A DNA stretch of 38,932 nt from Prevotellaceae bacterium (GTDB lineage Bacteria > Bacteroidota > Bacteroidia > Bacteroidales > Bacteroidaceae): assembly GCA_021204845.1 (NCBI GenBank), contig JAJPYT010000071.1, positions 1-38,932 on the forward strand. Direction: 5' to 3'. The notes under the pieces are model-generated. The model searched no databases and was not told the DNA's origin. It worked only from the letters and a program-made list of their open reading frames with translations. Both the position numbers and the translations under genes were made by a program. The number at the start of each line of letters is the position of its first letter. The stretch's first letter is position 1. Below, in pieces: positions 9,113 through 15,530 of this stretch.

Positions 9113-10204
9113 TTACTTATATAAATCTATCTTCTCTATTAAGTCCGAATTCTGGGTATAAGGTATAATTCTTTTGTGCTGTAGACGACCAACTATCACG
9201 CCTGGATGAGTGTTGAACTTATCAGCGTACACCATGATTGCCGCAGCGGAGAAATCCCCACTCTTTATCACCTCAGCCTCTTCTGCTTGCGAAAGCAACA
9301 AATTGGCGGCAAAACTATCGGCTGCATTCTCCTTTTCCTGTTGCTTGTCAATGTAATCCGCACTCTCCAGGAAGATGTCTTTCTTCCCATGAAGCAAGAT
9401 GTGCGCCAGCTCATGGAAGAATGTGAACCAAAATATATCATTCCGTTTGTGCCTTCCTGTTATCTGGATGCAGGGTACGTCATTAATCCATCGAGTAGAG
9501 CCGTTGATAGGCGCTTTGGGCAAACAAGGTGTATAAATAAGTTTCACGCCATGTTGCCCGCAAATGTTTTGCAACTCTTTAGCGAAACCTTGCGGATGTC
9601 GCGCACAGAGCGTCTTCATATCTGGAATTGACTCACGCAAGCCCTTTTCCGTGAAAGCAGACACATGCATTTCTGCCGCTTGCAATTCTCCCTCACGCAA
9701 CCATGCAGATATGGAGTGCGGTTCCTTTATGTTGCTCAACGAAATGCGAAAAGCTACTTTCAGTTGTTGGTTTAGATAGTAATCCTCCCATGCCTTTGCC
9801 GTGCTCACTTGAAAGAAAGAAAACAAAGACTTGACTTTCTCATCTAACGTCTTGGCAGCGCTCACCCACCCCATCCGTTCCATCTGGGCAAAAGGAAAGG
9901 CACGTGCCCACTGATAAGCCGATGTCAGCTGCTCCTCTCGCCTTTCACGGGCCATATATTCATCATACAAGCGTTGCTTCTCCAGCCAAAAATGTGCGGG
10001 AATCCTCGTGACACTCTCAAAAGCCACAGCCATATCGGGTGTTACTGAACTCGTTCCCTTTATGACGGCAAACACCGTTTTCTCTGGTTTCGACGTGCGG
10101 ACTGCGAACTCCTTTACACTCATCGCCATCTCTTTAAGTTTTTCCGCAAGCGTTACGCCTGGATGGAACGCCACTGGCGGAACAAATTTACTTAACGTTG
10201 CCAT
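9113..10204 (-). CDS. HigA-type antitoxin fused to ImmA/IrrE metallopeptidase domain
   Basis: A 363-aa protein. Residues ~14-75 form an XRE-like helix-turn-helix of the HigA/VapI type (HPGVTLAEKLKEM, then KPEKTVFAVIKG). The C-terminal part is an ImmA/IrrE (COG2856-like) zinc peptidase: HELAH at 264-268 with Glu292 in KENAADSFA as likely third ligand. In this family the N-terminal domain usually represses its own operon and neutralises a HigB/RelE-like toxin encoded just upstream. Here that gene is a broken remnant. The start at 10204 is backed by an AGGAGG sequence 6 nt upstream, strong for this phylum. With no intact toxin, it may act only as a regulator or protease, or protect against toxins elsewhere. 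Confidence 0.85.
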   Translation of the reverse strand: MATLSKFVPPVAFHPGVTLAEKLKEMAMSVKEFAVRTSKPEKTVFAVIKGTSSVTPDMAVAFESVTRIPAHFWLEKQRLYDEYMARERREEQLTSAYQWARAFPFAQMERMGWVSAAKTLDEKVKSLFSFFQVSTAKAWEDYYLNQQLKVAFRISLSNIKEPHSISAWLREGELQAAEMHVSAFTEKGLRESIPDMKTLCARHPQGFAKELQNICGQHGVKLIYTPCLPKAPINGSTRWINDVPCIQITGRHKRNDIFWFTFFHELAHILLHGKKDIFLESADYIDKQQEKENAADSFAANLLLSQAEEAEVIKSGDFSAAAIMVYADKFNTHPGVIVGRLQHKRIIPYTQNSDLIEKIDLYK

Positions 10205-12337: not shown

Positions 12338-13738
12338 ATGGCTAAACCTTCGCCTGGGAAGCTCTGGACGCGTTGCCTTAGCATCGTAAAGGTAAACGTG
12401 ACTGAAGACGAATACAACACGTGGTTCGCGCCAATCGTTTTCGATTCTGTCGACTTGGAGAAGAAAATGATTGTGCTTCGTGTGCCCAGCCACACCATCT
12501 GCGAGACGCTGGAGGCTGAGAAAAGGTTCCGCCACCTGCTCTACAACATCATTTGGCGGGTATATGAGGCGGAGCTGATGATTACCTACCGCGTGCTCGT
12601 CGACAGCACCACAAACCAGACAAACGACGTGCAAGGCACAGCTGGCAGCACCGCCAAAGAGCCTATAAACGCACGCACCAAGAAGGTGCAGCAGTCTGCC
12701 AGCAGCGAGCTCGACTCGCAGCTCAACGAGAGCTACACGTTCGAGAATTTCATTGAGGGCGAGGGAAATAAGCTGCTACGCTCTGTGGGGCTAAGCATAG
12801 CCACAAATCCCAAGCAGACGGCGTTCAATCCCCTCTTCATCTATGGTAGCTCGGGCGTGGGGAAAACTCATTTGGCTAACGCCATAGGCATTCAATTCAA
12901 GCGCAATTTTCCCGAAAAGCGGGTGCTCTACGTGACAGCAAACCTATTTAAAGTGCAGTTCATGACGGCTCGCGTGCAAAACCACATCAACGATTTCATC
13001 TATTTCTACCAGACGATAGACGTGCTAATAATAGATGACATGCAGGAGTTCGCTGGGCTGACCGGCACACAGCAGACCTTCTTCCACATCTTCAACCATC
13101 TGAAGATGAACGGCAAGCAAATAATACTTACCAGCGACCGCTCGCCAGCAAGCATGCCGGGGATGGAGGAAAGACTGCTCACACGTTTCAAGTGGGGACT
13201 CTCAGCCGAGCTGGAGAAGCCCGACCACGAGCTGTGCCGCAAGATTCTGGAGAGCAAAGTGCGGCAGGACGGACTTGCCGTGGGGGACGATGTTATAGAC
13301 TTCATAGCCAACAACGTAAGCGGCAGCATACGTGACTTGGAGGGAGTGCTTAGCTCTCTCATGGCTCACGCTTTGGTCTACAACCAGGATATTGACATGG
13401 AAATAGCCCAGCGCGTGATAAACAAATCCAAGAAATCACGCTACCAGACCGTCACCATCGACATGATTGTCGATAAAGTCTGCAATTATTTTGACCTCAG
13501 CGAGAGCGATATCGTATCGAAAGGGCGCAAGGCAAACATAGTGAACGTAAGGCAACTTATCATGTATCTGGCGCAGAAGCATACGAAAATGACCGCCAGC
13601 AAGATAGGCATCCGAATTGGCGGGCGCAGCCACGCCACCGTGCTTCACGCTGTAAAGCAGATCACTGCCCAGCTGGAGCAGGACAAGCCCTTTGCCCAGA
13701 AAGTCTCCGAGATAGAATCGATACTAAATTTCGTCTAA
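12338..13738 (+). CDS. dnaA: Chromosomal replication initiator protein DnaA
   Basis: AAA+ ATPase (466 aa) that binds DnaA boxes and opens oriC. Domain I is at about 8-88 (WTRCLSIVKVNVTEDEYNTWF). A short polar linker follows (about 90-130). The ATPase core has Walker A GSSGVGKTH at 170-178, Walker B VLIIDD at 229-234, and a sensor/arginine region RLLTRFKWGL. The C-terminal DNA-binding domain carries the DnaA signature GGRSHATVLHAVKQ. Length and order are normal. Its 3' end overlaps the convergent nitroreductase by 15 bp. I found no clear cluster of DnaA boxes nearby, so the window does not show oriC. Confidence 0.97.
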   Translation: MAKPSPGKLWTRCLSIVKVNVTEDEYNTWFAPIVFDSVDLEKKMIVLRVPSHTICETLEAEKRFRHLLYNIIWRVYEAELMITYRVLVDSTTNQTNDVQGTAGSTAKEPINARTKKVQQSASSELDSQLNESYTFENFIEGEGNKLLRSVGLSIATNPKQTAFNPLFIYGSSGVGKTHLANAIGIQFKRNFPEKRVLYVTANLFKVQFMTARVQNHINDFIYFYQTIDVLIIDDMQEFAGLTGTQQTFFHIFNHLKMNGKQIILTSDRSPASMPGMEERLLTRFKWGLSAELEKPDHELCRKILESKVRQDGLAVGDDVIDFIANNVSGSIRDLEGVLSSLMAHALVYNQDIDMEIAQRVINKSKKSRYQTVTIDMIVDKVCNYFDLSESDIVSKGRKANIVNVRQLIMYLAQKHTKMTASKIGIRIGGRSHATVLHAVKQITAQLEQDKPFAQKVSEIESILNFV

Positions 13739-14479
13739 AAAGCCCTGGCGGCGCAAAGCCTTCAGGAAGCCCTCGCTCATGGCTTCATTGTCCGCCTTAG
13801 TGTAGCGTATATCAGTGAATATCTGCGCCAGCGTCTCTTTGGCGTTAATCTCCACGAAATGCTTGTTCTCTGGCAGTGCCTCTTTCGCACGGTAGAACCT
13901 GTCTATGTCGCTTGCGGAATAGTCGTGATAGGTTTCCTGGTGCACGAACGACGCCACTGGCAAGCGGTCGCTCAGGGCTGGCTCTTCTGCTGGCCATCCG
14001 AGGGAAAGAGTGGCGAGCGGCATCACCAGACGAGGCAGCCGCAGCGTCTCTATTATCTGCTCTGGCTGGTAAACCGTGGTGCCTAAGTAGCAAAGCCCAA
14101 GTCCCTGCTCCTCCGCCAGATTGCAGAACGTCTGTGTGAACAGGAGAGCGTCTATCGCGGCATTCACGAAACTGAGGAAATTGCTGTATCCTGGCTCTGC
14201 CTTACGGCACTCACACCACGCCACAGTGCGGTGAAAATCAGCACAGACAGTCAGCACTACGGGAGCTTCCGTAACCATCGGCTGGCAGAAATGCAGGGGA
14301 GAAAGGCGTTTTTTCATCTCCTCGCTGCGAGTCACAACCACGCTGTAGAGCTGCAGGTTGCCCATAGTCTGCGTGCGCCCTGCCGCCTCGAAGAGGCTGT
14401 TAAGCAGCTGGTCACTCACTTCCTTGTCGCTGTATTTGCGCACGCTGCGACGCCGGGCGCATTGTTCCTTCAGAGTCAT
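13724..14479 (-). CDS. Nitroreductase family FMN oxidoreductase
   Basis: A 251-aa NAD(P)H-dependent flavoprotein of the NfsA/FRP-like nitroreductase fold. The N-terminal FMN phosphate-binding motif is RRSVRKYSD at 10-18, followed by the usual helix and GNLQLYSVVV strand. ALLFTQTFCNLAEEQGLGLCYLG is typical of the core helix and active-site strand. Physiological substrate is unknown; nitroaromatics, quinones or flavins are usual in vitro. It is transcribed from its own promoter, divergent from the ribonucleotide-reductase-like gene, and convergent with dnaA. Confidence 0.9.
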   Translation of the reverse strand: MTLKEQCARRRSVRKYSDKEVSDQLLNSLFEAAGRTQTMGNLQLYSVVVTRSEEMKKRLSPLHFCQPMVTEAPVVLTVCADFHRTVAWCECRKAEPGYSNFLSFVNAAIDALLFTQTFCNLAEEQGLGLCYLGTTVYQPEQIIETLRLPRLVMPLATLSLGWPAEEPALSDRLPVASFVHQETYHDYSASDIDRFYRAKEALPENKHFVEINAKETLAQIFTDIRYTKADNEAMSEGFLKALRRQGFLDEI

Positions 14480-14508: not shown

Positions 14509-14539
14509 CAAAAGTAAGCGAAAACTTTGAGACCACAAA
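14509..14539 (-). promoter_or_regulatory. Nitroreductase promoter
   Basis: On the minus strand, TTTG at 14539-14536 and TACTTTTG at 14516-14509 are 19 nt apart, matching the Bacteroidota -33/-7 pattern. The predicted start is about 25 nt before the ATG at 14479. It overlaps the opposing promoter at 14526-14557. Confidence 0.7.
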
Positions 14540-14557
14540 ATAGTTTTTGTAAATTTG
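14526..14557 (+). promoter_or_regulatory. Promoter of the ribonucleotide-reductase-like small gene
   Basis: TTTG at 14526-14529 and TAAATTTG at 14550-14557, spaced 20 nt, a near-consensus promoter. It rules out the TTG at 14555 as a start codon and points to TTG 14573 or GTG 14579. Confidence 0.7.
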
Positions 14558-14578: not shown

Positions 14579-15190
14579 GTGGAAGAAAGAACCTACACTT
14601 ATGATGAGATTTTCCGCGGTGTGCTGGACTACTTCAACGGCGACGAGACGGCAGCGCGTGAGTGGATAGTGAAATACGTTGACGCTGGCCGCCCCGATGT
14701 CATAGAGGTGCGACCCACGGAACTGGAGTGCGACGTGGTGCGTTTTCAGAACAAGAAGGAGAAATGGGTGGCATTCGTGGGACTGAAGAACGAGCGCCCC
14801 TACGAGATTTTCACTGGCTTGATGGACGACGAGGAGGGCATAGTGCTGCCCAAAAGCGTGACGCACGGCAAGATTATAAAGGCGAAAAATGCTGATGGCA
14901 CCAACCGCTACGACTTTCAGTTCCAGAATAAGCGCGGATACAAAATCACCGTAGAGGGACTATCTGGCAAGTTCAACAAGGAATATTGGAACTACGCCAA
15001 GCTTATCAGCGGCATACTGCGCTACCACATGCCTCTGCAAAACGTGCTCCACTTGATTGAGTCCCTCTCGCTCGACGCTGAGAACATCAACACATGGAAG
15101 ATGGGCGTTGTACGCGCATTGAAGAAATACGTTTCTGGCAGTGAAAACACTGAGACAGATGAGCCAGACGTTGACGAAGATAATTATTGA
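14579..15190 (+). CDS. Core-less B12-dependent ribonucleotide reductase-like protein (ends only)
   Basis: A 203-aa protein. Residues ~1-37 (YTYDEIFRGVLDYFNGDE, AAREWIVKY) look like the extreme N terminus of the large Bacteroidota adenosylcobalamin-dependent ribonucleotide reductase (NrdJ, about 850 aa by memory). Residues ~40-190 (LECDVVRFQNKKEKWVAFVG, RPYEIFTG, YDFQFQNKRGYK, EYWNYAKLISGILRY) look like its C-terminal domain. The catalytic barrel of some 600 residues is absent, and so is the terminal Cys-rich tail; the protein ends in an acidic run. The frame is open throughout and has a good promoter. Start GTG 14579 is chosen because 14555 lies in the promoter; TTG 14573 is possible. It cannot be a reductase. 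It may be a remnant or a repurposed regulator. Confidence 0.7.
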   Translation: MEERTYTYDEIFRGVLDYFNGDETAAREWIVKYVDAGRPDVIEVRPTELECDVVRFQNKKEKWVAFVGLKNERPYEIFTGLMDDEEGIVLPKSVTHGKIIKAKNADGTNRYDFQFQNKRGYKITVEGLSGKFNKEYWNYAKLISGILRYHMPLQNVLHLIESLSLDAENINTWKMGVVRALKKYVSGSENTETDEPDVDEDNY

Positions 15191-15530
15191 CCGCCAGAAA
15201 GTCTTCGCCCACCACGGTGCCTTGCCTCAGGAGCAAGCTGTGGGCGCATATTTCTACGTGAGCGCTGAGCTTGTGATGGAAGGTAACCCATCAGCCATCT
15301 CCGACAATCTCTCCGACACAGTCAACTACGCCTCTGTCTCACAAGCAATCACTGAGGAAATGGCGATACGCAGCGACCTGCTCGAGCACGTTGCTGGTCG
15401 CATACAGAAGCGCCTGCTCAGCGAACATCCCACAGCCCTGCAAATCACCGTACGTGTGATGAAAGAGAACCCGCCCCTCGGCATCCAGTGCGAAGGAGCT
15501 GGAGTGGAGGTAAGCTACTTGCGAATGTAG
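15159..15530 (+). CDS. folB: Dihydroneopterin aldolase
   Basis: Folate pathway enzyme (123 aa) converting 7,8-dihydroneopterin to 6-hydroxymethyldihydropterin and glycolaldehyde. Family signatures are IIIDRQKVFAHHGALPQEQ near the N terminus, the middle DTVNYASV, and the C-terminal VRVMKENPPLG with the catalytic lysine. The ATG at 15159 gives the normal N terminus; an earlier ATG at 15141 adds six atypical residues. Either start overlaps the end of the preceding gene (32 bp for 15159), so translation is likely coupled. No other folate gene is nearby. Confidence 0.9.
   Translation: MSQTLTKIIIDRQKVFAHHGALPQEQAVGAYFYVSAELVMEGNPSAISDNLSDTVNYASVSQAITEEMAIRSDLLEHVAGRIQKRLLSEHPTALQITVRVMKENPPLGIQCEGAGVEVSYLRM

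Follow-up and report, generated by a model that had tools for sequence, protein, structure and literature searches.

The window, the whole 38,932-nucleotide stretch of contig JAJPYT010000071.1 of a Prevotellaceae bacterium, carries an orphan gene for the C-terminal domain of the B12-dependent ribonucleotide reductase NrdJ at 14579..15190 (+). The gene lies in a conserved locus that begins with dnaA (12338..13738, +), named from its sequence and neighbourhood and backed by orthologues and synteny. The next gene, ntr (13724..14479, -), encodes a nitroreductase-family flavoprotein (PF00881, 55.9 bits), and in many relatives the same gene is fused in front of the domain. Against NF008033 it scores 108 bits, below the cut-off of 223, and an assignment as BluB, the B12 lower-ligand enzyme, is rejected at 33.3 bits against a cut-off of 150. 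The folB gene (15141..15530, +; PF02152, 96.8 bits) overlaps the 3' end of the orphan gene. Elsewhere in the window, at 9113-10204 (-), lies a gene whose motifs suggest that a HigA-like helix-turn-helix is joined to a peptidase of the ImmA/IrrE type.

The Bacteroidota promoter consensus is TTTG-N19-21-TAnnTTTG. Six matches are present in the window where 0.22 are expected. A match at 14526..14557 (+) precedes the orphan gene, and a divergent match that overlaps it, at 14509..14539 (-), precedes ntr. Matches in both directions are also present upstream in two related loci, L032 (genome G135) and L111, and a forward match is found in just 11 of 47 distinct upstream stretches of short forms. The locus order mlaD-dnaA> <ntr nrdJ> folB> is found with an intact nrdJ in Paraprevotella, Phocaeicola and Bacteroides, the dnaA, nitroreductase, nrdJ, folB series being seen in Bacteroides mediterraneensis, Phocaeicola plebeius, Paraprevotella and others. 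Outside the family, ntr adjoins nrdJ in 7 of 20 fetched loci, four of which also include dnaA.

A two-part gene of NrdJ origin

The orphan frame runs from a GTG at 14579 to a stop at 15188-15190, making 203 codons with no internal stop, and its start residue is common to its orthologues. It was compared with profiles of the N-terminus and of the body of the CRD (the cysteine-rich C-terminal domain) of NrdJ, each built from 52 full-length Bacteroidales NrdJ only. Residues 2-34 (14582..14680, +) are a remnant of the NrdJ N-terminal region and match positions 2-34 of the N-terminus profile at 41.5 bits. Residues 39-186 (14693..15136, +) are the CRD body, an IscU-like or TSCPD-like domain, and match its profile at 274.7 bits (E 5e-83); the body shows a mean column identity of 84% over 15 chosen relatives. 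The remainder (15137..15187, +) is an acidic, cysteine-free tail in the place of the six-cysteine zinc/redox end of NrdJ. In congeners with full-length NrdJ, the protein matches both ends of one frame of 850-900 aa. Among the matches listed, same-genus full-length NrdJ shows 44-49% identity over the first ~50 residues (18 rows) and about 72% over query residues 37-187. These separate matches at the two ends of one frame place the junction near residue 35-38.

What lies between those ends in NrdJ, and the zinc/redox tail that follows them, are missing. The PF02867 catalytic barrel has no match in the protein, the active-site motif NPCGE is absent from its sequence, while NPCxE is present in all 52 full-length NrdJ, and its tail has none of the six C-terminal cysteines (four zinc, two redox). 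On its own, the protein has no match in Pfam, PHROGs or a search of sequences of solved structures (PDB), and a single sub-threshold match in NCBIfam. PF02867 is also not found anywhere in the window's assembly, which at 83.7% completeness does not make that absence final.

The same join of N-terminus and body recurs in three other genomes (G062, G063 and G135), where the orthologues are 77-86% identical, and a further protein that is 98% identical (P0002) has five member sequences on two contigs. Such recurrence makes a chance deletion during assembly an unlikely origin. Short and decayed relatives of the gene also occur in records not labelled as MAGs: a 233 aa short form in the NrdJ-less Alloprevotella sp. 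Lung230 (L145), whose genome (G246) has a different PF02867 reductase, and pseudo-NrdJ in Alloprevotella tannerae ATCC 51259 (L135) and Bacteroidales bacterium KHT7 (L182).

The initial annotation, made from the letters alone, had described a 203-residue open frame in which the start of NrdJ is joined to its C-terminal domain around residue 38, with the barrel, the active-site cysteines and the Cys-rich tail gone, a consensus promoter ahead and folB overlapping the end. Each of these points holds, and both NrdJ ends are matched in alignment. Its further proposal, that the gene derives from a full-length nrdJ of the dnaA-nitroreductase locus, is supported by the intact nrdJ at that locus in relatives. 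The two-part NrdJ origin is shown, and it is equally shown that barrel and redox cysteines are both missing.

Forms and distribution of the domain

Forms were classed from 167 domain-bearing frames in fetched loci, amounting to 145 distinct proteins, with some genomes repeated. Full NrdJ accounts for 52 frames (52 distinct), the stand-alone domain for 57 (45 distinct), the fusion of nitroreductase and domain for 29 (26 distinct) and the domain with a zinc end for 14 (10 distinct). The window's own type, an N-terminal remnant plus the domain, is seen in 7 frames (4 distinct), and 8 frames, all distinct, are pseudo or partial forms; three contig-edge or broken NrdJ frames that have all six cysteines (L106, L108 and L109) were excluded from the pseudo-form analysis. 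The retained N-terminal pieces, given as profile positions, are 2-34 in the window, 2-64 in G139 and G168 and 3-80 in G137, and four further loci (L117, L119, L123 and L096) match positions 46-80 weakly, at 8-12 bits. Different pieces in different lineages are as expected of separate deletions. In addition, L217 (1990-3333, -; genome G109) has the domain behind ~285 residues without a match to the NrdJ core or to the nitroreductase, and at L285 (3233-6062; genome G421), nrdJ lies in two overlapping frames of 240 and 711 aa, either a natural split or a frameshift. Databases name two of the short proteins, of 193 and 197 aa (P0104 and P0093), "ribonucleoside-triphosphate reductase". The name is a warning for annotation.

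Two genomes, G055 and G120, have the nitroreductase fusion at the dnaA locus together with a complete NrdJ elsewhere (L229 and L246 in G055; L228 and L247 in G120). The G055 fusion shows one TGA in the whole-genome match, and in the fetched locus, L229, the frame is open through the domain. Since fusion and complete NrdJ coexist, the two are perhaps not redundant. The second, complete NrdJ might be an enzyme re-acquired by gene transfer.

For the distribution, a genome was taken as near complete at >=90% completeness and <=5% contamination; many of those sampled are incomplete MAGs. In the window's genus, the domain is found in 130 of 139 genomes (18/18 near-complete), the PF02867 barrel in 39 (7/18) and the class III reductase NRDD in 127 (18/18). 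The domain has no match in one of the barrel genomes, G025, which leaves 92 genomes of the genus with the domain and no barrel. By score, full-length NRDD frames sort into roughly three groups (E about 1e-195, 1e-100 and 1e-78); this suggests that more than one kind of class III reductase exists within the genus, with two in some genomes. In the family sample, 186 of 201 genomes have the domain and 152 the barrel, and 24 of the 28 near-complete genomes without a barrel keep the domain. PF02867 takes in class I enzymes as well, which makes "barrel-less" a conservative label. The same search finds barrels in 11 of 14 control genomes. In the order sample, 222 of 247 genomes have the domain, and among the matches listed the frames are nearly all full length, with one clear exception of 161 aa (G569). 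In the phylum sample, 18 of 296 genomes match: three belong to the family, 12 carry frames of full length (849-900 aa) and the other three give weak matches. Across all these samples, Bacteroidales is thus the only order in which free-standing forms were seen, most of them in a single family.

Some genomes do without the body. Eight genomes of the genus lack both barrel and domain, and in four of these (G046, G075, G079 and G089) the dnaA-ntr locus is intact, reading dnaA-ntr-(folB or oadG), yet shows nothing of the domain. In the others, G002 and G053 have contig breaks, and G034 and G098 are not judgeable. In the family sample, four near-complete genomes lack both barrel and body, one of which (G322) has a contig end beside ntr. 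Full-length, core-less and absent forms are all found at dnaA-nitroreductase loci.

Changes between full and core-less forms were counted on a tree of dnaA with 87 rows. At least five are needed, all five forced by well supported branches, and the label for nitroreductase fusion changes three times. A first quick tree of 98 rows gave seven changes of each kind, with long branches and with two genomes scored as full for a complete NrdJ elsewhere. The 87-row tree was built by a careful method, with those two genomes labelled by the state of the locus and 11 rows dropped (G267, G065, G116, N187, N149, G208, G119, G012, G105, G229 and G321). The domain-plus-zinc genomes G229 and G321 are among the dropped rows, so that lineage is outside the count of five; Alloprevotella and G569 are also outside this tree. 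The trees count label changes and do not distinguish gain from loss. Since full nrdJ is found at the same locus across families, losses are the natural reading of the changes. Barrel-less forms with the body kept are shown at several places in the tree.

Loss of the redox end and selection on the body

What the window protein has lost at its tail is precisely the part of the CRD that forms the zinc/redox end. Counting de-duplicated proteins, all six cysteines are present in 51 of 52 full NrdJ tails, the exception being L141. Among the 10 distinct core-less forms with a zinc end, nine keep only the four zinc cysteines, and L050 lacks just the last cysteine. Four of the five pseudo-NrdJ likewise keep only the four zinc cysteines, and L174 has no ribbon. 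Both redox cysteines, which in NrdJ pass electrons to the active site, are therefore lost in 14 of 15 distinct core-less or pseudo forms of this kind, and the fifteenth keeps one. The stand-alone, N-terminus-plus-domain and fused forms (93 rows, 75 distinct) have no zinc end. Electron transfer was dropped, and the body, with whatever else it does, was kept.

The pseudo-NrdJ show the core decaying around the body. In all five, the catalytic cysteine of NPCGE is replaced (N in L097 and L135, D in L174, S in L178 and L182). Compared with the intact NrdJ of L160, their cores are 17% (L097), 37% (L135 and L174) and 52% (L178 and L182) identical, and their bodies 84% (L097), 86% (L135) and 90% (L174, L178 and L182). 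Intact NrdJ bodies compared with each other give 86 and 88%, similar to the pseudo forms. L178 and L182 are 96% identical to each other, with a dN/dS of 0.005 in the body and 0.048 in the dead core, and so the dead core of this pair is itself still constrained. A nearly full-length NrdJ at L141 (4036-6552, +) keeps NPCGE, has 53% core identity and lacks the redox pair; it is possibly an early stage of decay.

In ten pairs of core-less forms, the body dN/dS is 0.004-0.068, and in an eleventh (G036/G071) dS is saturated. Six pairs of full NrdJ give 0.000-0.024, so that the ratio is on average slightly higher in core-less forms. Pairs from the clade of the window fall at the top of the core-less range, at 0.058-0.068, and the window body against its two nearest orthologues gives 0.061 and 0.058. 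Between the window and G063, the body at 0.061 compares with 0.111 for dnaA, 0.114 for ntr and 0.294 for folB; several dS are near saturation and some in this set exceed 1, making the values rough. Five pairs of nitroreductase fusions give a finite value, and in each of them constraint is tighter on the body than on the nitroreductase part. At the level of single positions, 80 columns are at least 98% conserved in 48 distinct full NrdJ; 61 of these have the same residue at 95% or more in 81 distinct short forms, and nine fall below 80% or change residue. The body is thus under strong purifying selection, and in intermediate forms the core of NrdJ decays around a hardly changed body.

Proposed function and comparison with known systems

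In many gut and rumen Bacteroidales the tail domain persists almost unchanged although the catalytic part was lost, more than once, which suggests a second job for the domain. We read the window gene as the remainder of nrdJ after loss of the barrel, with the body kept for that job and likely acting in trans as an adaptor, and give this a probability of about 0.6. On this reading nrdJ lost its catalytic barrel, and a short N-terminal remnant and a complete CRD body remained. The second job would already have been present inside NrdJ and would need neither ribonucleotide reduction nor dithiol exchange. Set free, the body may be a small oligomerising adaptor, possibly responsive to purine dNTPs as the CRD is in NrdJ, that would act on another protein of DNA-precursor metabolism. 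This draws on Stackebrandtia NrdJ, in which the CRD is required for the tetramers and hexamers induced by dATP and dGTP (PMC5704485).

The partner can be named only tentatively. The class III reductase NrdD is a possible candidate at roughly one chance in four by our judgement, suggested by function only; it is the one reductase kind found in the window's assembly. A little less probable is the neighbouring nitroreductase-like flavoprotein, suggested by adjacency and by its fusion to the body in several lineages. In all three genomes scanned, NrdD has an ATP-cone of its own and so no obvious need for a nucleotide sensor in trans, which does not support the idea of a cone-less NrdD borrowing the domain as its sensor.

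Should the flavoprotein be the key, the body could be a docking or oligomerisation domain for it, the pair serving another substrate once catalysis was lost, and in the intact system the flavoprotein might even be the electron donor of NrdJ of the CRD type. We consider this reading unlikely, at about the level of the flavoprotein's candidacy as a partner. The old adjacency of ntr and nrdJ speaks for it, as do the repeated changes of the fusion label (three on the careful tree, seven on the quick one) and the report that the CRD-type NrdJ of Stackebrandtia is not reduced by three tested thioredoxins and glutaredoxins, its donor not having been found in the work described (PMC5704485). However, clear ntr orthologues are present in only 124 of 201 family genomes. 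The 77 without one include G139 and G168, which have the stand-alone domain, and G011, which has full NrdJ; this co-occurrence does not support an obligate partnership. In addition, ntr persists alone where the body is lost, and a deletion could also fuse adjacent genes as a side effect.

The remaining alternatives are all much less probable. In Pseudomonas aeruginosa, a separate CRD protein, NrdJb, works with NrdJa (PMC4520616, PMC5704485), and the window protein could likewise be a subunit serving a separate, unrecognised NrdJ catalytic chain. We regard this as very improbable, since PF02867 has no match in the window's assembly or in 100 of 139 genus genomes (11/18 near-complete), and the protein lacks the redox cysteines through which NrdJb acts. 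Equally improbable is a decaying relic that persists by accident or because it affects folB in cis, through overlap and translational coupling. The gene clearly did arise by deletion, folB overlaps its 3' end, and the four genus genomes with an intact locus and no domain would fit. Yet a decaying remnant accords poorly with a dN/dS of 0.004-0.068 in ten pairs, with an internal stop in only one of the genus matches listed (the TGA of G055) or with in-frame fusion of the domain behind the nitroreductase. A folB effect is an unlikely reason for retention, as the domain is kept at loci where folB is undetected nearby or lies on the other strand (L090-L095, L107, L120, L127, L136 and L171). Least probable of all is an Fe-S scaffold that holds or delivers a cluster, for example, to the radical-SAM NrdG or to NrdD. 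AlphaFold gives IscU-like models for representative class II C-termini, but in IscU the ligands are an Asp, two Cys and a third residue that is Cys or His (PMC9669993), and most bodies have a single cysteine: 51/55 stand-alone, 7/7 N-terminus-plus-domain, 20/27 fused and 14/14 zinc-end rows, not de-duplicated. The window's body also has one, and so, judged on cysteines, does not supply the three Cys/His plus Asp.

Our preferred reading thus remains the kept body with a second job. The initial annotation had suggested that the gene would be a relic of the nrdJ locus, and allowed that the C-terminal domain might be a regulator, a decoy or a stand-alone family. The nrdJ origin and the stand-alone family are upheld, the latter by its wide distribution, several tree changes and strong purifying selection. 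The relic is not, given a body dN/dS of 0.061 and 0.058 to the nearest orthologues and an open frame, and the regulator or decoy is a conjecture. A more general proposal, to which we give somewhat under even odds, is that the Bacteroidales class II reductase is two-functional, with the IscU-like domain having an independent, nearly immutable task and the enzyme being the disposable half. The enzyme would then decay to a pseudo-enzyme and be deleted, repeatedly, and the domain would persist alone or on a carrier such as the nitroreductase. Purine-dNTP-responsive assembly, or control, of another protein would be an example of such a task.

Nature has in effect done a separation experiment more than once, removing catalysis and electron transfer and keeping the domain. 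The role of the domain can therefore be tested with a protein of ~170 residues and with allele comparisons in Bacteroides. It is also a clear bacterial case of an enzyme that dies while one of its domains is kept.

The closest known relative is the CRD of the dimeric class II NrdJ (Loderer et al. 2017, PMC5704485). By sequence, the window's body is the ~150-residue domain of full-length Bacteroidales NrdJ (274.7 bits), and it lies at the locus where relatives have nrdJ. The equation of the Bacteroidales region with the Stackebrandtia CRD is by position and the six-cysteine end rather than by alignment. As described there, the Stackebrandtia CRD has six C-terminal cysteines, of which four are proposed to bind zinc and Cys-933 and Cys-945 to form the redox pair. 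The window protein differs in having no catalytic barrel, zinc finger or redox cysteine pair. The NrdJb of the Pseudomonas NrdJa+b system (PMC4520616) resembles it in having the CRD on a gene of its own. However, NrdJb is described as mediating dithiol exchange and needing NrdJa, and the window has no cysteine pair, nor its assembly an NrdJa-like gene. Of 11 relatives scanned, four match TSCPD (PF12637) weakly at the body, their scores of 14.0-16.6 bits lying below the Pfam gathering cut-off of 22.8, and the window protein does not match it at all. The IscU-like domain of long class II C-termini (PMC9669993, 2022) is presumably the same domain, judging from its position. In section 8 of that paper, its role is given as unreported, oligomerisation is suggested, and it is described within reductases, including split NrdJb, and not as a free-standing product of enzyme loss. 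A literature search on TSCPD, NrdJ/NrdJb and Bacteroidetes ribonucleotide reductases, with subscription journals mostly uncovered, listed no report of a free-standing domain without a reductase. The window gene represents a known enzyme domain in orphan form, one that recurs and is under strong selection, and what is new is the free-standing variant.
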